A stretch of 64,000 bases of DNA. Source: Flavobacteriaceae bacterium NBU2973 (lineage in GTDB: Bacteria > Bacteroidota > Bacteroidia > Flavobacteriales > Flavobacteriaceae). The stretch lies in assembly GCA_026162565.1 (NCBI GenBank), contig JAOEIQ010000002.1, positions 310,001 to 374,000 on the forward strand, in the 5' to 3' direction. The notes under the pieces are model-generated. The model saw only the letters and a program-made list of their open reading frames with translations, was not told the DNA's origin and searched no databases. Each line of letters begins with the position of its first letter. Positions within the stretch are counted from its first letter, which is position 1. Below are positions 8,804 to 18,580 of the stretch, piece after piece. Position numbers and translations under genes: made by a program.

Positions 8804-10684
8804 ATGAAACATTTGCAATCATTAGTATTTATTCTATTAATACTTATTAATACTAGTACTACAGTAGCACAAAACGTAAAAGAAGATCCTAATCTGCAAG
8901 CTGCATTTCAGGCTCATGGTGCATTAAAGCTTACAGAAGCTAAATCTTATTTTGAAACAGTAGCACAAAATAGAGAAGCATCTAAAAAAGATCGTTGTGA
9001 GGCTTTAAGACAACTTGCATTATTAGAATGGAAGCATTACAGAAATTATAACACTTCTATTAATCTATTAAAACAAGCCGATAGCATAGGAGATTATAAA
9101 TCTGAAACACATTTAGTACTATTACGAGTAGAAGAGGAATCAAAAAATTTTGAAAAAGCCCTTATCGCTGGTGATAAGGCAATAGAATTAGCAAAGTCTA
9201 AAGGCGATAAGAATTACTCAAAATATAAATTCTCTAAAGTAGTTTTAAGTCATGCTACTAGCCAATTTTTAGCTAACAACCCTATAAATAACCAATTAGT
9301 TACTAAAGCAAAACTACTATTAGAAGAGGTTTTGAATACTAATCCAACAAATGTAAATGCTGCAGATGTGCTATTTGGTTTATCGTTACTTCAAAAAGAT
9401 GGAGCTAATGCTCTAAAATCCTGGTTGGCTTATTATAGATTTAATACTCCTGAAAGTGCTTATAAATATTTACAACCAACAGCAATTAAACTAAACAGAT
9501 TATTAAACAAATGGAATTCTGAAACACTTACTAATTCAGAGGAAACTGAATTAATTAAAGCCATTGGCAGTTCTAGATTCTATAAATACGTAAACATTTT
9601 AGCAAAGCATTTTAATAGTAAGGCAACGCCAATTATAGAATATGCAAACTATATGAAAGATATGGAGGCATTAACAAACAACTATTACAGATTAGTAAGC
9701 ATTGATAAAGCTGACTCTGGAGACTTTTTAAATTCTATTCGATTAAAAAATGAAGCGTTTTACAATACCATTACATCTGATTCTGATACACCATTTGAGC
9801 CCAATAACTTTAGAGACTTATTACGTGAAAAATTTGGAACTGTATTAATTGTTTCTAGTTCAAGTGCCTCAAGACAAGTAGGATTAGTATTTGGGCATAT
9901 TGTTAACGAGCGTATACGAAACATAGAACAGTATGGCCATAGTGCAGATTTCACCTTTACCGAATTAGATATGATGATTTCTAATGGTTATCCAAGTTGG
10001 TTTTGGGAAGATAGAGGAGCAGGAGGTTATGCGTTAAGAGGTGGCTTTTTAAGAATAAAAACTATGTTTAAGTATCTAGCAATTAGTGCTTGGGAAAAAG
10101 TAACCGACTCTGTAAAGCGTCAAAAAATTGAGCAAAGTATACAAGCGAATTTATTAGAATCTGATTTACAAACAGATATTAAAGTTATACGAGCAGCTGT
10201 AGCAAAAAAAATAGAATTAGATGCATTAGATGCACTATATAAAAAGCTTGTCTCTAAAGGTTATAATGGTATTGAACTGCAATTAAAATTTATAGAGCAA
10301 TATGAACTATATAGAGATAATGCTACCATGTTTGCTCACGAAGGTAGACATTCTATAGATAGAGTTGTGCTTGGAGATCAATATAGAGCACTAGGCTCTA
10401 AGTTAATTGAATACAGAGGTCGCTTATCGCAAATAGCATTTAGTGAATCTCCAAAACTGGAATTGGCCAATATGCTATCTGGAGTATCATCAACACCAAC
10501 TGGGCAATCTAATAAAATGATTATCGATGTTATTGAGAATTGGATTATTAATAATGTAAAATCTATAACAGATTATAACACTAAACAATTACCATTAGCA
10601 CAAATTTATAAACTAACAGACGCACAAATTATTTCTGCTATACAAGCAGTAGATCCATTTTATATTGACTTTATAAAGAATTAA
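8804..10684 (+). CDS. Secreted protein with TPR-like N-terminus and an HEGRH motif
   Basis: I do not recognise the family. It has a Sec signal peptide (ending near STTVAQ) and an alpha-helical N-terminal half with TPR-like features (LQAAFQAHGALKLTEAKSYFETVAQ; ALIAGDKAIELAKSKGDKNY). In the C-terminal half, AHEGRHSIDR contains an HExxH-type zinc-protease signature at residues 512-516, and the following helix is rich in Glu (KLIEYRGRLSQIAFSE) that could supply a third ligand. A metallopeptidase role is therefore possible but unproven. The gene is monocistronic, with a palindrome and -7 box just upstream. It is 626 residues, and no lipobox or T9SS sorting domain is seen. Confidence 0.6.
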   Translation: MKHLQSLVFILLILINTSTTVAQNVKEDPNLQAAFQAHGALKLTEAKSYFETVAQNREASKKDRCEALRQLALLEWKHYRNYNTSINLLKQADSIGDYKSETHLVLLRVEEESKNFEKALIAGDKAIELAKSKGDKNYSKYKFSKVVLSHATSQFLANNPINNQLVTKAKLLLEEVLNTNPTNVNAADVLFGLSLLQKDGANALKSWLAYYRFNTPESAYKYLQPTAIKLNRLLNKWNSETLTNSEETELIKAIGSSRFYKYVNILAKHFNSKATPIIEYANYMKDMEALTNNYYRLVSIDKADSGDFLNSIRLKNEAFYNTITSDSDTPFEPNNFRDLLREKFGTVLIVSSSSASRQVGLVFGHIVNERIRNIEQYGHSADFTFTELDMMISNGYPSWFWEDRGAGGYALRGGFLRIKTMFKYLAISAWEKVTDSVKRQKIEQSIQANLLESDLQTDIKVIRAAVAKKIELDALDALYKKLVSKGYNGIELQLKFIEQYELYRDNATMFAHEGRHSIDRVVLGDQYRALGSKLIEYRGRLSQIAFSESPKLELANMLSGVSSTPTGQSNKMIIDVIENWIINNVKSITDYNTKQLPLAQIYKLTDAQIISAIQAVDPFYIDFIKN

Positions 10685-10765
10685 AATTTAATATTTACAT
10701 ACGAATATAGAGTAGACATCAAAATATTATATTTTACATAATATTAATTATAGAACATTTATATA

Positions 10766-10856
10766 ATTTACGTAATAGCGTATGTAATGCGCTATTTGAT
10801 ATAATCGTGTTATAATTCTTTAGAATTATAATATACCGATTATGTGCAAGTAAATT
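10766..10856. repeat. Structured dispersed repeat, copy A (MITE/REP-like, ~91 bp)
   Basis: The ends AATTTAC and GTAAATT are inverted. Inside are two hairpins: AATAGCGTAT with ATGCGCTATT, and TTATAATTC with GAATTATAA within a longer stem closed by ATAATCG and CGATTAT. Copy C at 16663 has the same layout with base changes that keep pairing, and a partial copy lies at 10888. No transposase gene is nearby. It marks the left edge of the accessory island. Confidence 0.7.
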
Positions 10857-10887
10857 ATATTTATGTATATGTTACGATGCTGCCTAT

Positions 10888-10942
10888 AAATCGTGTTATA
10901 GTTCTTTAGAATTATAACTCATACGATTATGTCAAGTAAATT
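10888..10942. repeat. Structured dispersed repeat, partial copy B (second hairpin only)
   Basis: It repeats the right half of copy A: AATCGTGTTATAGTTCTTTAG..., then GATTATGTCAAGTAAATT at the end. It starts about 32 bases after copy A ends and lacks the first hairpin. It probably arose by tandem duplication or partial insertion of the same element. Confidence 0.65.
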
Positions 10943-11120
10943 ATACTAGAAACTTAATTTATACTAACTGCGTATAAATTGAATATTCTGTACAAAGATC
11001 AAGAAATTATTTTTTAAACGATTCTCATGAACTTGCCACAAGAGCATAAATTTTAAGAAAAATAAAATTCTATGCACTTGTTATATTTAGAACTTCAATT
11101 AATCCTTTTTTTAATGTTTC

Positions 11121-11206
11121 ATTATCTTTTGTCTTGAAACAAAAGAAACAAAAATTCAAGGCTGCATATAATTTTGGAAACAATTAACGGCTCACTCGCT
11201 ATATTT
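11121..11206. repeat. Possible intergenic repeat element in the 10685-11346 gap
   Basis: The stretch contains TCTTTTGTCTTGAAACAAAA followed by GAAACAAAAATTCAAGG and, further on, ACGGCTCACTCGCTA. A short inverted repeat CTTTTGT/ACAAAAG is visible. I recall closely similar strings as recurrent intergenic elements in other flavobacteria, but this was not searched. The rest of the 662-base gene-free stretch, outside this and repeats A and B, shows only AT-rich sequence with no ORF. Confidence 0.35.
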
Positions 11207-11346
11207 TAGGAAACATTGTAACTGGTTAACATTGCTATGAAATCCATTTTATAATTAAAACTCTTAAGAAACTGTATACTAAACCCCTAAAATATTGACG
11301 CTCATTTCACCTATTGTTTTACCAAAATTATATGAGGCCAAGAAAA

Positions 11347-12837
11347 TTATAAACTAAACATTGAATTTATTGATTCTTTCAAAAAAGTGTAAAATCCTTT
11401 ACTTTTCTTTTTAAGCAACGAATTCTCATACTTAATTCTGCTGTTTTCAGCAACTAAATGTTTAATAATTAATGACTTATTTGTATCATCTGCACTACCA
11501 ATTATGTCATTAGAAATTGCACAATCTTTTCTGCAATTAGCGTCAAAATCGAAATCTATATTTCCTGTATTGAAATCCATTTCTTTTGGACCATAATAAA
11601 TTCCTCTAGGTTTCAAAATCAAGGATAAGAATTGTTGTATTTCCATTCCTGCCAAACTCAAACTAAAACCAAAAACATTTTCACCTCTATTAATAAAATG
11701 ATTTTTTGGTAAGCCTTTAATATAATTTGGATTATCCAATTCTCCAGACATTTCCAATGCAGCATCTTCGGGTTTATATTGCCCTAAACATTGCATACAG
11801 ATTCTTTCAGGACCTATTGTGTGAGCCTTCCATCTTGCTTGATCTATATTTGATAAATCTTCCATTGGATTTGTATCAATTCCACCATCAATTACTGGAA
11901 TTAAATTCGCAAACGACAAGCAATCTAAAGTGTATCTTGGTAATGGCATGTCTACACAAGAAAATAAAACATCGCAATCTAGAGCTGCTTCTTGTCCTTC
12001 TTTTTCGGTAATACTATATGGTACAGCAATAATGGTTAAACCCGAAATGAGTTCGGTTTTTAATAGACGCTCTTTTTGAATTTGTACTTTATATTTACCA
12101 ATATCAGCTTTATTTATTGCTAATAATCTATCTAAATTTTTCAACTCAACTAAATCAAAATCAATAAGCGTTAAATTCTTAACACCTGTTCTCAAAATAG
12201 CTTCAGCTACTATAGAACCAACACTACCTAAACCTACTATTCCAATTTTTAGTCTAGAAATTTCTTGTTGCTTTAAATCTCCCCAAGATGAAATAGTCCG
12301 TTTAAACTCTTCTCCGAAACTAGACTTTGGAAAAATATCATCGCAGAAATAGGTTTTTAGGGACTTCCCTACTACCCTTATCGATTCACACCAATATCGC
12401 TCATATGTATTTGGAGCTTCTTTTATCCAAAAGCGTGCACTCCAATAATTATCTGTTCCGATTGTCATTCCAATTAGAGGTAATCCCGTAACTGCCTTAA
12501 CTCTTGGAGCTAACATTTTCTCTGCTTCTATATCGTCAAAACTCATTCCTTGCCAACCTGGATAGGGATGACTATGAATAAAACAGATTCCTAAATTATT
12601 AGCTAAAGCATAAGACGTTACTTTATCAAAGTAAGATGAATTAAAACTTACATTTCCATGTACATTTCTGTCCTCAAATTCTGGCAAAATCACTTCATTA
12701 ATCACTCCTGTTTTTCTAGATTTTCCAGAAGATAATTTATAAAAAGCAAAGCATAAATCTTCTTGACCATCCTCTCTAATGAGGTGTTCAAAAAATATCC
12801 TATTGACATTTTCTGTCATGGTTACACTATACTTCAT
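11347..12837 (-). CDS. JAB/JAMM peptidase-ThiF (E1-like) fusion of a prokaryotic ubiquitin-like conjugation system
   Basis: The N-terminal ~140 residues are a JAB/JAMM metalloprotease: Glu17, then HSHP at 88-91 with Ser99 and Asp102, giving an intact zinc site for isopeptidase or Ubl-processing activity. Residues ~190-410 are a ThiF/E1 adenylation domain with GLGSVG (202-207), the nucleotide-binding LIDFDLVE (224-231), NLDR, and IDGGI near 320. Cysteine pairs CMQC (347-350) and CRKDC (435-439) look like a structural zinc site. The C-terminus is a short basic coiled-coil-like tail. It should activate the C-terminus of the tandem-Ubl protein and may also remove it. The start overlaps the E2 stop by 4 bases, so it is the third gene of the operon. 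JAB-ThiF fusions are known in Multi_ubiq gene neighbourhoods. Confidence 0.88.
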   Translation of the reverse strand: MKYSVTMTENVNRIFFEHLIREDGQEDLCFAFYKLSSGKSRKTGVINEVILPEFEDRNVHGNVSFNSSYFDKVTSYALANNLGICFIHSHPYPGWQGMSFDDIEAEKMLAPRVKAVTGLPLIGMTIGTDNYWSARFWIKEAPNTYERYWCESIRVVGKSLKTYFCDDIFPKSSFGEEFKRTISSWGDLKQQEISRLKIGIVGLGSVGSIVAEAILRTGVKNLTLIDFDLVELKNLDRLLAINKADIGKYKVQIQKERLLKTELISGLTIIAVPYSITEKEGQEAALDCDVLFSCVDMPLPRYTLDCLSFANLIPVIDGGIDTNPMEDLSNIDQARWKAHTIGPERICMQCLGQYKPEDAALEMSGELDNPNYIKGLPKNHFINRGENVFGFSLSLAGMEIQQFLSLILKPRGIYYGPKEMDFNTGNIDFDFDANCRKDCAISNDIIGSADDTNKSLIIKHLVAENSRIKYENSLLKKKSKGFYTFLKESINSMFSL

Positions 12838-13193
12838 TCGAAATCTAATAAAGTTCTTAAGAATGCTAAATAATCATCCGCAGTCATACCAGAAGTCCAT
12901 CCTCTAAAAGGTCGACTCCAATACTGATATTCTGGTGTCGGAACTTTTCTATCATGTATTCCTCCAAAAGGATGAGTACCTCCACCACCTGAAATTGGAA
13001 GTAAATGCGGTTTAATATGTGGACCTGAAGGTGGTAACAATGGAAATTGTTGACCTTGTAAAGCTATTTCAATTTCTTGACCTTTAAACCTTCCTAAAGG
13101 AACGATAAACTTGAAGCACACAAAGTTATTTGTGTGCATCCAAGTTTCGAGTCCTTTGCTTTGCAACTGACTCATTAACTCTTGATTTCCCAT
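12834..13193 (-). CDS. E2/UBC-like conjugating protein (Prok-E2 family), catalytic Cys not at usual site
   Basis: A 119-residue protein with the E2 signature order: a beta-strand region (VCFKFIVPLGRFKGQEIEIA), FPLLPPSGPH, then a Gly-rich loop with HPFGGIHDR, YQYWSRP, and a C-terminal helix DDYLAFLRTLL. Alignment by eye to classical E2s (FPxxPP, HPNI, G-x-I-C, W-x-P) puts His80 where the thioester Cys would be. The only Cys is at position 26, in an early strand. It may use a non-thioester mechanism, or act as an adaptor. Two bases separate it from the Ubl gene and it overlaps the E1-JAB gene by 4, so the three form one operon. I place it in a bacterial E2-like family associated with tandem Ubl genes; the exact Pfam family needs a search. 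Confidence 0.8.
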   Translation of the reverse strand: MGNQELMSQLQSKGLETWMHTNNFVCFKFIVPLGRFKGQEIEIALQGQQFPLLPPSGPHIKPHLLPISGGGGTHPFGGIHDRKVPTPEYQYWSRPFRGWTSGMTADDYLAFLRTLLDFE

Positions 13194-13195
13194 AA

Positions 13196-13639
13196 CTACG
13201 AAACAGTTGTAGGTTCAAGTTTACAAGAACTAAATTTTAAACCATTTTTAATGGCAATTTTATGTTCTCTATCATTCTTGTAACTAATTTCCTTATGTCC
13301 ACTAATTTGTTTTAAATAAAACCCATTGGCATTTTTTCCAGCAGCAGTTAATATTTCATTTGGTGTCATGAAACATTCATCAACTTCTACAGGTTCGTCA
13401 TCTACATAAATTATTAGCTTCTTATAAGGTTTGGCAAAAAAACCTTCAATTCCAGCTCCTTTTAAATCAATTTCTTCATCTAATTGAACTGGTTCGAAAC
13501 CTTTTTCGTTTACCTTAATTAATAATTCGTAATCTTCTACAGGCAACAAATTTGCATTTTCTAAAATTTCTTTTCCTGTAATAATTGCGTTAACAGTTTC
13601 AAATTTCTCTCTGTTAACTTTGTAAATAAAATTTTTCAT
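13196..13639 (-). CDS. Tandem ubiquitin-like (multiubiquitin) protein
   Basis: Two beta-grasp ubiquitin-like repeats of about 70 residues lie head to tail. Repeat 1: FIYKVNREKFETVNAIITG followed by KEIL, LLPVEDYELLI and LDEEIDLKGAGIEGFF. Repeat 2: KLIIYVDDEPVEVDECFMTP, NEILTAAGK, and a closing HKIAIKNGLKFSS. The pattern (ITG-x-x-IL, DE-x-x-DL-x-x-G) fits the prokaryotic multi-ubiquitin family. The C-terminus is LEPTTVS, with no Gly-Gly. The frame continues up to 13672, but ATG 13639 (MKNFIYKV) fits the domain start and is preferred. It is the first gene of the operon and the presumed modifier that the E1-JAB and E2 proteins handle. Confidence 0.85.
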   Translation of the reverse strand: MKNFIYKVNREKFETVNAIITGKEILENANLLPVEDYELLIKVNEKGFEPVQLDEEIDLKGAGIEGFFAKPYKKLIIYVDDEPVEVDECFMTPNEILTAAGKNANGFYLKQISGHKEISYKNDREHKIAIKNGLKFSSCKLEPTTVS

Positions 13640-13689
13640 TGTAATAATTATATTAAATATTAATGTTCTCATTTATTCTAGCAGTATGA

Positions 13690-13878
13690 GAACTGTTACT
13701 GCTTTGACGTTCCTGACAACAAAACTTGTGTAATATTTAAAAAATCATTACCATTGTAGTACAGTACAAAGGGAGTTATAAGGTGGATAAACCTTATATT
13801 ATAGAGTCCGTCAAAACTTTAAATCCCATTTTATAATCCAATTTATTGTTCAAGCAATAGATTGGATTTTTTTATTTA
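13690..13878 (+). ncRNA. Candidate small transcript ending in a strong terminator (function unknown)
   Basis: The gap 13640-14160 has no ORF, but it contains a hairpin TATAAGGT/ACCTTATA (13777-13784 with 13791-13798) and then a strong plus-strand terminator at 13835-13878. With no plus-strand gene upstream to terminate, the simplest reading is a short RNA made from this gap, divergent from the Ubl operon. No promoter box is clear and no known RNA family is recognised; the 5' end given is a guess. The remainder of the gap (13879-14120) is very AT-rich with nothing recognisable. Confidence 0.3.
13835..13878 (+). terminator. Strong intrinsic terminator on the plus strand, no gene upstream
   Basis: A 14-bp stem with one G-T wobble pairs AATCCAATTTATTG (13835-13848) with CAATAGATTGGATT (13855-13868) around the loop TTCAAG, followed by seven Ts. 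Orientation is plus, towards the XRE-ImmA gene. It would insulate that gene from upstream transcription or end a small RNA. Confidence 0.75.
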
Positions 13879-14126
13879 ATTATTTATCCATTATTGGTTT
13901 AAAAATTATACGAGACAAATATAATTAATAATAATGGTTAAATAGATTAAACTTATTAACATTTATGCAGATTATATGTTAATATAAAATAATTAACAAA
14001 TTTGTTAATTATTATTAATATAAGTAAACTCTTAATTTGTATACTATATATCATAATTGATAATATTTTTTTTATAAAAATATAATTAGTTATTAACATT
14101 TTAATGAATTACTAATAATGTTTTAC

Positions 14127-14134
14127 TATATTTG
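14127..14134 (+). promoter_or_regulatory. Bacteroidota -7 promoter box (TATATTTG) for the XRE-ImmA gene
   Basis: TATATTTG followed by GC matches TAnnTTTG and lies 26 bases upstream of the ATG at 14161. The leader would be about 20 bases. No palindromic operator is obvious next to it. Confidence 0.55.
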
Positions 14135-14160
14135 CAGTCTTCAAAGCGGTCAAAAAAAAT

Positions 14161-15240
14161 ATGTCAAAAAACAATATTCATCCTGGTCTGATTCTTAATA
14201 AGGTATTAGAAGACAAGGGTTTGAGTCAAAAAGAACTAGCCTCAAAGATTAATGTCGCTCATTCTTTATTAAACAATATTTTAAAAGGAAAACGAAATAT
14301 TAATGTTAATATCGCTATTTCTCTTGAAGCTGCTGGATTAAATAAAGCAAGCTATTGGTTAACTAAACACATGGAATATCTTTTATACCAAGCAAAGAAT
14401 GATTCAAGTGTTAACAAAAAGAAAGAAGCTATAGAAACTTGGGATATAATAGAGAAAGAATCTTTAATACCATTAGATTACTTTAAAAAACATGTTAACA
14501 TAAATTCTTCTGACGATTTACAAACTGTTTTTGATATATATCAAGTAAAAAACATTCAAGAGTTAAAGGGTGTTCTTGATAATTATAGTCTTACATACTT
14601 TAGGAAATCTACAAAATTTGCTGAAAGTCGTAATAATGTAATTGCATGGTCTTTATTAGCCGAAATGAAAGCTAGTGAAATGGTAGTGAAGACTTTTGAT
14701 AAGTCCACAGAAAAAGCACTAATAAAAGAACTTAAGAAGTGTTTTAAAAAAAATAAAAATACAGTAATAAACACAAAACACATACTTGCAAATCATGGTA
14801 TTAAGTTCGATGTTTTAGATAGACCTCAAAAGACTCCTGTTGAAGGTAAATCTTTTATTTCCGGAAAAAACCCAGCTATATTTTTAAGTTTAAAATATAA
14901 AAGGTTAGATAATTTTGCTTTTACCATTATGCATGAGTTGGGTCATGTGTATAAACACCTCACGAAATCTAAATATAAAGGAGCTAGTTTCTTCATTAAT
15001 AACGCTAATATGAAATTAGAAGAGTTTGAAGCTGATAACTATGCACAAAATAATTTAATTGAGCTTGATATATGGAATGAGTTCTATATGTCAAATGAGG
15101 AGTTTGATGATGAAACAATTATTGAGTTTGCAGATAAATTAAATATCCATCCTGGAATAGTTAGAGGTCGTATTTGTTTTGAGAATCCAGAATACTACAG
15201 AAAAAGAACAATTATTAATAAAATGAATATTTTATCTTAA
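14161..15240 (+). CDS. XRE-family HTH regulator fused to an ImmA/IrrE-type (M78) metallopeptidase
   Basis: Residues ~8-65 form a HigA/XRE-like helix-turn-helix (LSQKELASKINVAHSLLNNI). Residues ~225-310 form a zinc peptidase of the ImmA/IrrE family with MHELGHVYKHL; His258, Glu259 and His262 fit HExxH, and EEFEADNYA supplies the usual third ligand region. Proteins of this build often bind an operator and are inactivated, or cleave a partner repressor, on a stress or phage signal. It is divergent from the Ubl operon and convergent with the AbiEii toxin, whose 3' end it overlaps by 9 bases. It could control either neighbour. The middle ~120 residues are not assigned. Confidence 0.85.
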   Translation: MSKNNIHPGLILNKVLEDKGLSQKELASKINVAHSLLNNILKGKRNINVNIAISLEAAGLNKASYWLTKHMEYLLYQAKNDSSVNKKKEAIETWDIIEKESLIPLDYFKKHVNINSSDDLQTVFDIYQVKNIQELKGVLDNYSLTYFRKSTKFAESRNNVIAWSLLAEMKASEMVVKTFDKSTEKALIKELKKCFKKNKNTVINTKHILANHGIKFDVLDRPQKTPVEGKSFISGKNPAIFLSLKYKRLDNFAFTIMHELGHVYKHLTKSKYKGASFFINNANMKLEEFEADNYAQNNLIELDIWNEFYMSNEEFDDETIIEFADKLNIHPGIVRGRICFENPEYYRKRTIINKMNILS

Positions 15241-16020
15241 AAACCAAAAAGACTTTTTTCTTTTTTTCTTTGTTCTTGTAAAAGTCAAATCTTTAGATTT
15301 AGCAAGTAATTCAACTCTTTTTATCCATTTTTCTCTTAAATCTGGCCATGCAATTTTTAATTCAGAATCTTCAGTATAAACAATTCTGTTCCCTGGATTT
15401 TTTTTATCACCAGCATTATTATAATTACCTAATGGAGTTAGGTCTTTTTCTAGTCTATTGATAGGTTTACCTTGTTCTATATCAAAAATTGATTTATCTG
15501 TTTCCTTCGGGAAATTTATTTTTCTATTTTGAAGATTATCATAATATACTTCAAGTCTCATTTTCTCACTTAATAAGTAGAGATCATAAAAGTCTTTTTG
15601 GTGTCCTCTATCAGCTGCAGCTAAAAGTTTTAATGCTCCAATATCTATATCACTAATTAACCTTATTCCATCCTTTACTTCGTGTTTATGTAATAGTTTA
15701 AGATTTTGAATAATATCAAGCTTTATAGATTCCTTTTTTAATGTAATTTGGAGCCATGCGAATTGCTCTGAATTAAAATTTTGTTTATTAATTATTACGT
15801 TTTCAGAACCAAACTCTTTTTTAATGTATTCACAAATTAAATTAAGCTTTTCTGTACCTACAATTGAAGTAGAAAATAAATCAATATCTGTCGACTCTCT
15901 ATGATTATATTTAATTGCAAGATTTGTTCCACCTCCTAAAAGAAAGTCTTTTAATAATGGTTCATTCATAAGTTTCAGAATTACACTATATAATTCATCT
16001 GAAACCCCTTTTTTAAGCAT
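15232..16020 (-). CDS. AbiEii/AbiGii-type nucleotidyltransferase toxin
   Basis: A nucleotidyltransferase of the AbiEii family, the toxin of type IV abortive-infection/toxin-antitoxin systems, which transfer nucleotides to RNA targets. The diagnostic motif is LLGGGTNLAIKYNHRESTDI followed by DLF, around residues 27-48. A second conserved block is ISDIDIGALKLLAAADRGHQ, followed by KDFYDLYLL. At 262 residues it matches Bacteroidota members. It is preceded, with an 8-base overlap, by a small gene encoding the probable antitoxin. The C-terminus is strongly basic (RTKKKRKKSFWFLR). It overlaps the convergent XRE-ImmA gene by 9 bases, so 3' ends would produce antisense overlap. Confidence 0.87.
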   Translation of the reverse strand: MLKKGVSDELYSVILKLMNEPLLKDFLLGGGTNLAIKYNHRESTDIDLFSTSIVGTEKLNLICEYIKKEFGSENVIINKQNFNSEQFAWLQITLKKESIKLDIIQNLKLLHKHEVKDGIRLISDIDIGALKLLAAADRGHQKDFYDLYLLSEKMRLEVYYDNLQNRKINFPKETDKSIFDIEQGKPINRLEKDLTPLGNYNNAGDKKNPGNRIVYTEDSELKIAWPDLREKWIKRVELLAKSKDLTFTRTKKKRKKSFWFLR

Positions 16021-16348
16021 ATTTTAGATTGGGAAGATATTTTTTAAAACCCATAGGATCTAATCCATAGCGACTTGCCACAAATTCAATATTTTCATTG
16101 CCAAAAATTTCAGAACTGTTTTTAGCATATGATTTAATTATGTTTTTAGAATATAATTTTTCTAAATTTTCTAAATTTTCAATTTTATTCATATGTCTAG
16201 ACAATACTCTTTGGATAATAAAATCTTTATCTCTCTTTATAGATAAATCTTCCATTTTAACATCCCAAAACATTGCATGAGAATATAAGTCAGATAATCT
16301 GTATTTACCCGATTTAAAATTATTTGATATGTTGAATAAAATATTCAT
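16013..16348 (-). CDS. Probable antitoxin of the AbiEii toxin (DUF6922-like)
   Basis: An acidic-basic helical protein of 111 residues. The segment MFWDVKMEDLSIKRDKDFII followed by QRVLSRH and a C-terminal run ending in FKKYLPNL matches the small proteins (DUF6922-type) that precede AbiEii genes in Bacteroidota. The frame is open to 16429, but ATG 16348 is preferred because a -7 box (TATATTTG) ends 5 bases upstream. It overlaps the toxin by 8 bases, giving translational coupling. The family assignment is from memory of the motif; the antitoxin role is inferred from gene order. Confidence 0.72.
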   Translation of the reverse strand: MNILFNISNNFKSGKYRLSDLYSHAMFWDVKMEDLSIKRDKDFIIQRVLSRHMNKIENLENLEKLYSKNIIKSYAKNSSEIFGNENIEFVASRYGLDPMGFKKYLPNLKYA

Positions 16349-16353
16349 TTGTA

Positions 16354-16361
16354 CAAATATA
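16354..16361 (-). promoter_or_regulatory. Bacteroidota -7 promoter box (TATATTTG) for the AbiE operon
   Basis: On the minus strand TATATTTG ends 5 bases before the ATG at 16348, so the mRNA would be nearly leaderless. This decides the start of the antitoxin over the longer frame to 16429. Confidence 0.5.
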
Positions 16362-16606
16362 CTAATAATTTGATTCTCTTTAATGAAAAATTCAATTATT
16401 CGATATATTACATAATTATCAAAAAGCATTCCAAATCAGCAATTTATGACATAATATCAATTGTCATTCCACACACATTACACTACTCTCCTATTGTCGT
16501 TTCGTGTAAAGAGTGTTCCATTAACTGTAGTAATGAAACTTTTGGAGTAAAATTTTTAAAGAAACTGTAGTAAGAACTTTTCGCTTTTATCCAAAGCACA
16601 AGTTAC

Positions 16607-16630
16607 CCTTCGACTTCGCTCAGGATAAAC
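16607..16630. repeat. Fragment of an intergenic palindromic repeat
   Basis: CCTTCGACTTCGCTCAGG followed by ATAAAC is a short imperfect palindrome. I recall it as a recurrent sequence between genes of Flavobacteriaceae (not searched). It lies just before structured repeat copy C; the rest of the gap 16430-16662 shows no gene. Confidence 0.4.
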
Positions 16631-16662
16631 TCCACGCAAGTACATTATAGTGCAACTATATT

Positions 16663-16750
16663 AATTTACGTAATAGCGTATGCAATACGCTATTTGATAT
16701 AATCGTGTTATGATTCTAAAGAATTATAACACGTAGGATTATGTCAAGTA
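16663..16750. repeat. Structured dispersed repeat, copy C (right edge of island)
   Basis: Same layout and orientation as copy A at 10766. Hairpin 1 is AATAGCGTAT with ATACGCTATT. Hairpin 2 is GTGTTATGATTC with GAATTATAACAC, closed by ATAATC and GATTAT. Base changes relative to copy A (for example ATGCGC to ATACGC) mostly keep pairing. Copies A and C are direct repeats about 5.9 kb apart, enclosing the Ubl operon, XRE-ImmA and AbiE genes. Confidence 0.7.
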
Positions 16751-16780
16751 ATGAGTAAAATTTTATGAAGTGCATAATCT

Positions 16781-18580
16781 CTAATCCTGATAACCACCAA
16801 AGAACTTAACTGGCGACCAAGCTGGAATAGGTTCTGGTATATCTGGACTCAAATTCTTAAAATCGTCTGCACCATAAACGATCTTTCCATTAACTATAGT
16901 TAATACTGATTTAATAGTTTTTATTTGTGATTCTGGAACCGAAAAATAATCGTCTGAAAGAATCGCTAAATCAGCATACATTCCATTTTCTAAAGAACCT
17001 TTAACGTCCTCTTCTTTAGAAACCCAAGCACTGCCTTTTGTATATAAATGTAGAGCTTCTTCTCTACTCAACTTATTTGATGAGTTACTCAATTGAAAAT
17101 CACCTACTGTTTTACCACTAACCAACCAATATAATGCTGGCCAAGGATTATAACTTGCAACTCGTGTACCATCAGTTCCTGCTCCAATAGGAATTCCCAT
17201 GTCCATAATTTTCTTGACAGGTGGCGCTTCTTCAGCTTTTTTTGCTCCATATCGTTCTACAAAATATTCGCCTGCATAGGCCATCCTTGCTTGAATAGCA
17301 ATACCTCCATTTAAAGATTTTATCCTTTTAAGTTCTCTTTTGGTGACCGTTTCAGCATGATCAAACAACCATCTCTGTGACGCTAATTTTCCATTTGTTT
17401 CAGCATTTACCTCTTCAAACACATCTAACATGTTTGAAATAGTTTCTCCATAAGTAGCATGAATTCGGAATGGCCAACCTTTGTCTACATGTAATTTCAC
17501 TATTCGTTTTAAATCAGATCGCCAAGTAGGCCGATCTTCAAGCATTGGTTGAGGCGCTAAAAAATTTTCATAATCTCCGGCACTCCACGCTAAAAATTCT
17601 CCACCTCCTTCTAACTCATAACCATGATCTAAATGAATCTCACCATTATGACCAACCTCATTAGTTGCCATCCAATCTTGAAACTCTTGATACTCATCAC
17701 CTTTATTTTGTGGAAACAAATAGTAAGATAATCGAATAGGCATTTCCCCTTTTTGGGCAAGTGACTTTGTTCCTGAATAGTCTTTTGGAAACTTGTGTCC
17801 TCCTCCACCTGCGTCAATTCCAGAGGTAATACCAAAACTATTTAGTTCTCTATAAAACTGAATAGTTGAGTTAATCATTTGATCTTCAGTTAGTGAAGGC
17901 AATGCTCCTATACTCATATACAATATTGTTGGATTAGGTTCAGCGAATAAAACTCCTGTTAGTTTACCATTTTCGTCTTTTTCAAACGAACTTCCTTTAG
18001 GTGCAATAGTTTTTTCATCAATTCCTCTTGCTTTAAGTCCAGCTTTATTTAGCCAACCTCTACTGTATAGAAATGAAATGAATGTTGGCACATTACCTGT
18101 TGCGCTCTCAATTTCTTCCATCGTAGGAAATCTATTTTCCTCAAATTGATAAGGACTCCAACCACCAATTACGCGAACCCATTGTCCTTCAGGTGTTCGC
18201 TTGGCTTGTTCTTTTAGCATTTCAAGTGCACGTTTAAGGGAAGTAACACCATCCCAACGTAATTCAGAATTATAGAAACGACCACCTCGTGTTAAATGTA
18301 AATGACTATCATTTAAACCTGGAATAACTGTTCTGCCTTTTGCATCAATTAATCTTGTAGTCTCAATTCTGTATTTCAACATATCTTGATTTGTACCAGA
18401 GGCCAATACTTTTCCATCTCGAATAGCCAATGCTTGTACAATAGTTTGCTTGGTGTCCATTAATGCAATGTTTCCATTTGTAATAATCAGATCAGCTTCA
18501 AAAATTATTGATTCTTTTTTAGTATCATTCTTACAACTAATTAATAATAGTAATAAGATAATATGTGCTATGTTTTTCAT
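16781..18580 (-). CDS. Amidohydrolase family 3 protein (YtcJ-like), lipoprotein
   Basis: A metal-dependent hydrolase of the amidohydrolase superfamily, YtcJ type. The N-terminus MKNIAHIILLLLLISCKN is a lipoprotein signal. Family landmarks are ITNGNIALMDTKQTIVQALA, DAKGRTVIPGLNDSHLHLTR (metal-binding HxH region), and near the end GAGTDGTR and NGMYADLAIL. Length after the start correction is 599. The frame is open to 18637, but ATG 18580 begins the signal peptide and avoids overlap with the upstream gene. It is the last gene of the run headed by the MarR regulator (22-10 base spacings in this end). The substrate cannot be inferred; the alginate-export-like porin nearby suggests uptake or detoxification of an organic compound. 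Confidence 0.85.
   Translation of the reverse strand: MKNIAHIILLLLLISCKNDTKKESIIFEADLIITNGNIALMDTKQTIVQALAIRDGKVLASGTNQDMLKYRIETTRLIDAKGRTVIPGLNDSHLHLTRGGRFYNSELRWDGVTSLKRALEMLKEQAKRTPEGQWVRVIGGWSPYQFEENRFPTMEEIESATGNVPTFISFLYSRGWLNKAGLKARGIDEKTIAPKGSSFEKDENGKLTGVLFAEPNPTILYMSIGALPSLTEDQMINSTIQFYRELNSFGITSGIDAGGGGHKFPKDYSGTKSLAQKGEMPIRLSYYLFPQNKGDEYQEFQDWMATNEVGHNGEIHLDHGYELEGGGEFLAWSAGDYENFLAPQPMLEDRPTWRSDLKRIVKLHVDKGWPFRIHATYGETISNMLDVFEEVNAETNGKLASQRWLFDHAETVTKRELKRIKSLNGGIAIQARMAYAGEYFVERYGAKKAEEAPPVKKIMDMGIPIGAGTDGTRVASYNPWPALYWLVSGKTVGDFQLSNSSNKLSREEALHLYTKGSAWVSKEEDVKGSLENGMYADLAILSDDYFSVPESQIKTIKSVLTIVNGKIVYGADDFKNLSPDIPEPIPAWSPVKFFGGYQD

Follow-up and report, generated by a model that had tools for sequence, protein, structure and literature searches.

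A Bub-type operon with a cysteine-less E2-fold protein and a conserved divergent RNA in Flavobacteriaceae bacterium NBU2973: a probable reversible protein-tagging system in a defence neighbourhood

A stretch of 64,000 nucleotides (nt) from Flavobacteriaceae bacterium NBU2973 (contig JAOEIQ010000002.1, positions 310,001 to 374,000; hereafter the window) carries three consecutive genes for a tandem ubiquitin-like protein (Ubl), an E2-like protein and a fusion of a JAMM (JAB) peptidase with an E1-type ThiF domain (JAB-E1). Which conjugation system do these genes encode, which chemistry could an E2-like protein without a catalytic cysteine support, and what controls them? Bacteria have relatives of eukaryotic ubiquitination in their Bub systems, for which we know of no trigger. 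In our assessment, at a probability of about 0.75 that covers the proposed conjugation cycle and control as well, the locus is a Bub-type operon of a widespread variant clade without a DUF6527 gene, and it encodes a system for reversible protein tagging that sits among defence genes and includes a divergent small RNA as a hitherto unrecognised component. A preliminary description of the window had given the gene identities and the operon, which stand, and did not mention that the E2 has no catalytic cysteine, that DUF6527 is missing or that an RNA gene is conserved upstream.

The operon and its relatives

The operon comprises the following genes:

13196..13639, minus strand: BubA-like tandem ubiquitin-like protein, 147 amino acids (aa), reading frame open to 13672, C-terminus ...EPTTVS
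12834..13193, minus strand: BubB-like E2-fold protein without catalytic cysteine, 119 aa, invariant S93 within a WSR motif
11347..12837, minus strand: BubCD-like JAMM peptidase-E1 fusion, 496 aa, with E26, H88, H90, S99 and D102, GLGSVG at 202 and CxxC at 347/350

All three genes are real and lie where they had been placed; the JAB-E1 and E2 genes overlap by 4 bases and a gap of 2 bases separates the E2 and Ubl genes, which fits one operon. Read from its first ATG, the Ubl open reading frame (ORF) spans 13672-13196 (158 aa), and the alignment of its relatives begins at the ATG at 13639, giving 147 aa. A JAB-E1 alignment scan of genome contigs found 129 relatives, 80 of which were kept; with the window and six plasmid loci they form a set of 87 loci (numbered L; genomes are numbered G) drawn from many phyla. 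In these loci, selected by JAB-E1, iterated profiles detected the E2 in 86 and the Ubl in 84, so the gene set is not a chance assembly. A single-sequence search found the E2 in 2 of 395 genomes of a phylum sample, its own genome counted. By tblastn, relatives occurred on 16 plasmid records, with actinobacterial and haloarchaeal ones among the matches listed; a single-sequence E2 query had no match on plasmids, and a pattern scan of viral contigs yielded no encoded JAB-E1 relatives. The haloarchaeal plasmid matches, L011 among them, are distant archaeal JAB-E1 relatives of about 25-30% identity, and the two small genes that precede the JAB-E1 gene in L011 are matched by neither the E2 nor the Ubl profile. 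In L025, assigned to Williamsia (Actinomycetota, a metagenome-assembled genome), the JAB-E1 nests among Chitinophagaceae proteins, as a recent transfer or a mis-binned contig would.

The Ubl contains two Pfam Multi_ubiq stretches (E = 2e-12). Its AlphaFold model (predicted local distance difference test, pLDDT, 89.6; predicted template modelling score, pTM, 0.69) matched residues 155-229 of Citrobacter BubA (9ea8_B; Z 11.6, root-mean-square deviation, rmsd, 2.5, 74 aligned) and the bacterial multi-ubiquitin protein 8u38_A (Z 12.3, 139 aligned), in the latter case with an rmsd of 10.9, so that the two domains probably stand in another mutual pose; the second half matched ubiquitin at Z about 7-8. 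The tandem beta-grasp architecture that had been claimed is thus supported both by the profile search and by the resemblance of each model half to beta-grasp structures. In the JAB-E1, the ThiF domain was recognised by Pfam at 6.2e-30 and residues 6-321 aligned with Citrobacter BubCD at 1.6e-17. The JAMM residues H88, H90, S99 and D102 and the GLGSVG motif at 202 were found exactly as previously read and are conserved among relatives (H88 and H90 in 87/87, S99 in 85/87, D102 in 86/87). E26, likely the remaining JAMM residue, is present in 87/87, as is each of the E1 residues G202, G204, G207, D226, D228, N234, R237, K250 and D296, and the cysteines C347, C350, C435 and C439 are kept in 86/87, 85/87, 77/87 and 83/87, respectively. 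The intact E1 and JAMM sites would fit the earlier proposal that the same polypeptide activates and removes the modifier.

The E2-like protein by itself matched nothing in Pfam, PADLOC or NCBIfam. When its family profile (A2) was run against the PDB, it reached Citrobacter BubB at 3.6e-5, and the best structural match of its model (pLDDT 95.7) was again Citrobacter BubB (9eae_C; Z 9.7, rmsd 3.1, 109 aligned), with eukaryotic E2s next and the following row (Z 8.8) a tie by the rule of the tool. Foldseek returned nothing at E 0.001 or better (best 0.026), E2s being most of the matches listed; we therefore draw the kinship from the profile match and the second alignment, which together uphold the E2-like identity first given to this protein. 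The Prok-E2_E profile (PF14462), to which the Pontibacter E2 belongs, matched nothing in the own genome even at E 10, which places the window E2 family outside that profile. Judged by sequence, the three genes are homologues of BubA, BubB and BubCD, and the suspected kinship with Multi_ubiq/JAB/ThiF gene sets is borne out by the Pfam hits and by the sequence and structure matches to Citrobacter Bub.

By sequences and folds, the locus resembles Citrobacter BubA/BubB/BubCD (PDB 9ea4, 9ea5, 9ea8, 9eae, 9eav) in its multi-Ubl protein, its E2 fold with a WSR serine and its JAMM-E1 fusion. It differs in the lack of an adjoining DUF6527 gene, in the -V-S/-V-A tail of its clade and in the conserved RNA upstream. 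The window clade is also separate from the six sampled canonical JAB-E1 proteins, which a quick tree places on one side of a branch of support 100, with long branches that make finer claims unsafe. No DUF6527 gene was found in the window, and a five-sequence profile, for which 83 of the 87 loci offered at least 600 nt downstream, detected DUF6527 in a single clade locus (L084, 2 kb off and on the opposite strand); the same profile was positive in L156 and L157, which carry Bub-like operons of another type. Among 13 sampled canonical plasmid loci, a gene table that can be incomplete lists DUF6527 in 11. As two canonical loci thus also lack it in the table, DUF6527 is usual and not defining, and the window locus is a variant.

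Bil (BilABCD) and the type II cyclic-oligonucleotide-based antiphage signalling system (CBASS) with Cap2/Cap3 also comprise Ubl or E1-E2-JAMM machinery for conjugation in bacteria. The E1 and JAMM of Bil are encoded by separate genes and its E2 has a catalytic cysteine; in the window the JAMM and E1 domains are fused and the E2 has no cysteine at the site. Type II CBASS has a cyclase; no CD-NTase match was obtained among the six window ORFs scanned, and the neighbours encode HTH-M78, AbiEii and DUF6922 proteins, so the locus is not of this type. What the locus does contain are features of Bub and type 6e systems, namely a tandem Multi_ubiq Ubl, a cysteine-less E2 fold homologous to BubB and a JAB-E1 fusion, with the DUF6527 gene absent. 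A polyUbl/E2/JAB-E1 set was already predicted in 2006 as row 6e (Iyer 2006, PMC1779556, in its available part); type 6e as given there shares with the window the polyUbl, a cysteine-less E2/RWD-like domain, the JAB-E1 fusion and the middle position of the E2 gene, and it has a metal-binding protein Y that is absent from the window locus.

Serine 93 and the tail of the ubiquitin-like protein

The sole cysteine of the window E2, C26, lies in a strand near the N-terminus, away from the active site, and a cysteine-relay E2 was ruled out on the alignment, which has no catalytic cysteine. Of the E1-E2 pathway first envisaged, the E2 fold is retained, and an ordinary cysteine relay is unlikely since the E2 lacks the catalytic residue. 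In its place, S93 is invariant in 86/86 relatives and aligned with the serine of the Citrobacter BubB WSRH motif; G34 is kept in 85/86 (the exception being a gap) and H59 in 78/86, with the L036 protein a fragment. The WSRH serine occurs in 12 of 13 canonical plasmid loci, and in L123 a serine stands in another context (WHVHSW). S93 is thus likely to be the carrier or acceptor of the Ubl. Bub conjugation reportedly proceeds via oxyester intermediates, and the invariant S93 is what points to such chemistry in the window system. It is unlikely that the protein is instead a catalytically dead RWD-type binder and that the E1 half modifies targets, or itself, directly: both the reported oxyester chemistry and the invariance of a single serine among variable positions, aligned with Citrobacter BubB, argue against it. 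The lack of a catalytic cysteine would agree with a dead binder, as would the designation of the domain as inactive in the available part of Iyer 2006 (PMC1779556).

The C-terminus of the Ubl is equally distinctive. In the 84 loci with a Ubl, 72 proteins are unfused and 12 are fused to the E2. The unfused proteins end in -VS (48), -VA (18), -TS (1) or -AS (1); three carry -GVS plus four further residues, and one (L073) has no tail in the called frame. The fusions contain [PT]V[SA] at the junction in 12/12 cases, so that a V-S/V-A-type tail, TS and AS included, is found in 83/84 loci. Canonical plasmid loci (n = 13) differ: five of their eight unfused Ubls end in TTTEG, which one fusion carries at its junction. 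From its sequence, the clade tail is V-S/V-A in place of glycine, and it is a constrained feature because it is kept even where it is not the protein end. This constraint points to recognition at the tail and, in the fusions, to possible cleavage there.

In the cycle that we propose in place of a cysteine relay, the E1 half of the JAMM-E1 protein would adenylate the C-terminal -Val-Ser of the tandem Ubl, which would then form an oxyester with serine 93 of the cysteine-less E2 and be handed on to a target. Its removal would fall to the JAMM half, which, in relatives with a Ubl-E2 fusion, could also free the Ubl.

A conserved structured RNA upstream of the operon

In the divergent intergenic region, directed away from the operon, the window contains:

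13726..13756, plus strand: Bacteroidota-type promoter of the RNA, TTG-N20-TACCATTG
13749..13877 (model span), plus strand, opposite to the operon: conserved structured noncoding RNA gene, about 115 nt, predicted transcript about 13762-13873
13835..13876, plus strand: intrinsic terminator of the RNA, 15-bp stem and T run

The plus strand of 13690-13875 folds with a z of -4.45 (0/200 shuffles as good), and a terminator, 13835-13868 plus the T run, was found once against 0.2 expected. The intergenic regions of the window and of Zobellia are nearly identical directly upstream of the Ubl gene, and the cassette common to L014, L016, L015 and L059 stops at window positions 13873-13883, right after the plus-strand terminator. 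In Rfam 15, all matches listed up to E 1 for window 10600-16900 and seven loci lay below the gathering score.

Two models of the RNA were built, R1 from six and R2 from nine sequences, the E-values of both being rough. Covariation was assessed on 11 sequences, nine of them R2 training rows, in an alignment fitted to the model that accordingly leans to structure: 92.6% of cells pair, two-sided changes occur in 19/38 pairs, where shuffles give 7.4 and none of 500 reaches as many, and slid structures score no more than 0.101 for covariation, compared with 0.324 here. TTG-N19/20-TANNTTTG, which we take to be the Bacteroidota promoter consensus, marks the model start in all 11 RNAs of this set, mismatched at no more than one position; a promoter-like site occurred anywhere in 50/500 shuffles of 100 nt, and the fit is poorer in L093 and L158. 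Helix 1 of the RNA model overlaps the promoter and probably does not belong to the RNA. By eye, 8 of 12 RNA loci (L014, L016, L015, L059, L129, L130, L131 and the Pontibacter locus L093) show a CTGTTCAG/CTGCTCAGG-like element, a possible operator, about 20-30 nt ahead of the TTG box; it is not clear in the window, L013, L156 and L157.

Could the conserved element act as DNA, or as the 5' leader of the operon, without a separate RNA? The minus strand folds too (z -3.29), and an operon-strand promoter-like site with one mismatch lies at 13819. The T run, the promoter and the G-U wobbles (39 G-U cells against 11 A-C cells on the plus strand) favour the plus strand, and with six sequences the operon-strand fold gave two-sided changes in 5/47 pairs against 11/54, in stretches of unlike length. 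We consider such a role improbable and a separate plus-strand RNA the better account.

This RNA was found upstream of a Ubl gene in 11 loci (one Ubl gene being a fragment) that represent two or three operon types, and a twelfth locus is likely. Over the 87 sources, R1 recovered its six training sites and a site in Pontibacter (L093 3084-3200; E 0.0018, or 1.8e-5 within the locus with filters off), besides weak opposite-strand echoes, at the training sites, of the palindromic terminator. The Pontibacter hit has 33 bits, in the false-positive range, and its promoter shows two mismatches and a shift of 4; it was kept only for its location, its orientation and a compensatory stem. Of 299 family genomes, R1 hit four: the own genome, G554, G687 and G526. 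Multi_ubiq is present in all four, against 12 of 299 overall, a coincidence of probability 1.5e-6, or of 3.8e-5 when the own genome is left out. The Ubl of G554, a frame of 79 aa, matches positions 1-47 of 69, and neither an E2 nor a JAB-E1 was found there. Another operon type is seen in G687 and G526: the Ubl gene is followed by DUF6791-ThiF and then DUF6527 (a Pfam match in G687, recognised by eye in G526), and HigA-ImmA lies on the far side of the RNA.

R2 recovered over 61 further sources only the G554 site (L141, both strands), L093 and a weak L142 site (E 0.063), and over 395 phylum genomes it hit eight at E 0.05 or better, the own genome among them. Two of these hits, in G316 (63.9 bits) and G154 (51.0 bits), lie upstream of Ubl/DUF6791/ThiF/DUF6527 operons and on the other strand, and CapH-CapP and IetAS follow on the far side. 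Across both scans, five of six hits of at least 47 bits outside the own genome stand beside a Ubl gene. Inspection by eye rejected three hits (G384, G168 and G204, 32-38 bits) as tRNA plus terminator, and a second G316 hit and G068 as plain terminators. The DUF6791/ThiF operons (L130, L131, L156 and L157) resemble the window in having a multi-Ubl gene with the same divergent RNA upstream; they differ in that DUF6791 replaces the JAMM domain (as a separate ORF in L156) and that nothing in them matches the E2 profile of the window clade. DUF6527 was found in them by Pfam in L130, by profile in L156 and L157 and by eye only in L131.

The genes beyond the RNA vary: HigA-ImmA, CapH-CapP, IetAS or MqsRA-like. 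In the window, L013, L130, L131 and L156, the RNA is followed, in its own direction, by a regulator gene (HigA-ImmA or CapH-CapP), as would be expected of a leader or attenuator of that gene. In L014 and L157, however, the RNA is kept although the next gene, IetS, is oriented like the operon; the RNA is therefore not just a leader of a divergent gene. It is also kept in L015, where an MqsA/Panacea-type gene runs in the operon's direction, and the genes of L016 and L059 have the same sizes and directions as those of L014 and L015. A leader or attenuator is very unlikely on these grounds. Rather, the RNA most likely controls the operon. Read away from it, from its own promoter to its own terminator, it may act by antisense pairing or interference with the 5' leader of the operon, or by binding one of the components. 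The long divergent intergenic region would probably govern expression, and the divergent HTH-ImmA/IrrE regulator, where present, would act together with the RNA.

We believe the RNA to be a new part of the locus. No report of an RNA beside Bub-type operons, or of the V-S/V-A tail, was found in the open-licence literature, searched partly through top-ranked matches only, and a prior description is possible; in the main text of PMC13373217, the terms noncoding, non-coding RNA, small RNA and sRNA occur 0 times. More tentatively, and at somewhat less than even odds, this new RNA family, of about 115 nt and with its own promoter and terminator, would be a dedicated mobile component of Bacteroidota Bub operons across differing enzymes and regulators, and may be a sensor or switch.

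The neighbourhood, defence and meaning

Beyond the RNA, the window contains:

14161..15240, plus strand: divergent HigA-type helix-turn-helix (HTH) plus ImmA/IrrE (M78) metallopeptidase gene; HTH_3 1.4e-8, Peptidase_M78 1.2e-4, HELGH intact
15232..16020, minus strand: AbiEii nucleotidyltransferase (type IV toxin-antitoxin toxin family); Pfam AbiEii 6.4e-13
16013..16429, minus strand: DUF6922 protein beside AbiEii; Pfam DUF6922 4.7e-10

In PADLOC, the HigA-ImmA gene matched PD-Lambda-2_B (1.3e-34) and capP (1.3e-6), and its product is likely a regulator. Only frames of 26-47 aa lie beside it apart from the Ubl and HigA frames, and no small toxin was found there. AbiEii also stands beside the HigA gene in L013 and, by annotation, in L007. 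Iterated profiles detected an HTH/ImmA-type protein anywhere in 57 of 87 loci; of 74 loci with sufficient DNA, 48 have its gene within 2.5 kb upstream of the Ubl gene (41 divergent, 7 in the same direction), compared with 2 of 72 within 2.5 kb downstream of the operon, and HExxH was kept in 49 of 53 upstream proteins from loci of any length. This association is known in kind, since 219/544 Bub operons adjoin CapW or CapH+CapP according to the available part of PMC13373217. The CapH+CapP and CapK+CapS controllers described there likewise place an HTH and an ImmA-type peptidase by Bub operons, and the window differs in joining HTH and peptidase in a single HigA-like chain, whose gene is separated from the operon by a structured RNA. 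The single-chain form occurs in the window, L007, L010, L013 and L130 and, by profile, in L131.

An 87% identical cassette in Arenibacter (L014) and Algibacter (L016) follows genes of 895 and 362 aa, which in L014 are IetS (E = 0) and IetA (3e-137), and IetAS again precedes the Bub-like operon of L157. The IetA-IetS pair (AAA ATPase and subtilase) thus adjoins Bub-type operons at L014:156-3933 and L157:6081-9632, and in Rhizobium sp. 007 (L120:4749-7224) an S8 peptidase and ATP-binding gene pair, by annotation, does likewise. The Galbibacter neighbours are MqsA/Panacea- and MqsR-like, the MqsR match lying under the Pfam cut-off. Beyond the operon of the window, a gene for a 626-aa protein (8804-10684) had only one weak match in 25 related genomes, and two similar AT-rich palindromic repeats were seen by eye downstream of the operon (10790-10960). 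A flanking-gene search for an empty insertion site yielded no usable close relative.

Of the link to phage defence made in the preliminary description, what holds is the neighbourhood (IetAS, AbiEii, HigA-ImmA and CapH-CapP), from which we conclude that the gene set probably acts in stress or phage defence. The patchy distribution, with the E2 in 2/395 genomes, the plasmid copies (16 records) and the defence neighbours make it rather unlikely that these genes form a general stress-response or housekeeping protein-modification system instead.

Several observations weigh against our overall reading. According to the available part of PMC13373217, phage protection by Bub operons had not been demonstrated, a point that would also favour the non-defence alternative. 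The actinobacterial-type E2s of L007, L008, L010, L012, L088 and L091 have a cysteine seven or eight residues before the serine; the E2s of L009 and L099 have none there. The R1 search was negative for the RNA in 80 of 87 sources, and in the family sample the RNA was not found in 8 of 12 Multi_ubiq genomes, so it is not part of all Bub systems. A good R2 hit, in G348 (49.1 bits), has no adjoining Ubl gene. It lies (L158:6155-6275, minus strand) divergently upstream of a MazG - ThsB TIR - Nmad2 - ThsB TIR - SLATT operon.

If our reading is correct, the structured RNA kept across operon types would be a concrete candidate for the missing Bub control element. On the more tentative view of the RNA as a sensor or switch, bacterial protein tagging would be under RNA control, for instance through an RNA titrated or destroyed by phage or stress, and the related element beside the MazG-ThsB-Nmad2-ThsB-SLATT operon would extend such control to a second defence system. 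The clade would also be a natural experiment, with a Val-Ser/Ala tail rather than glycine, a serine E2 and a JAMM domain as the only protease seen in the operon; it would show how far the glycine tail, the cysteine relay and the separate protease of ubiquitin logic are dispensable.

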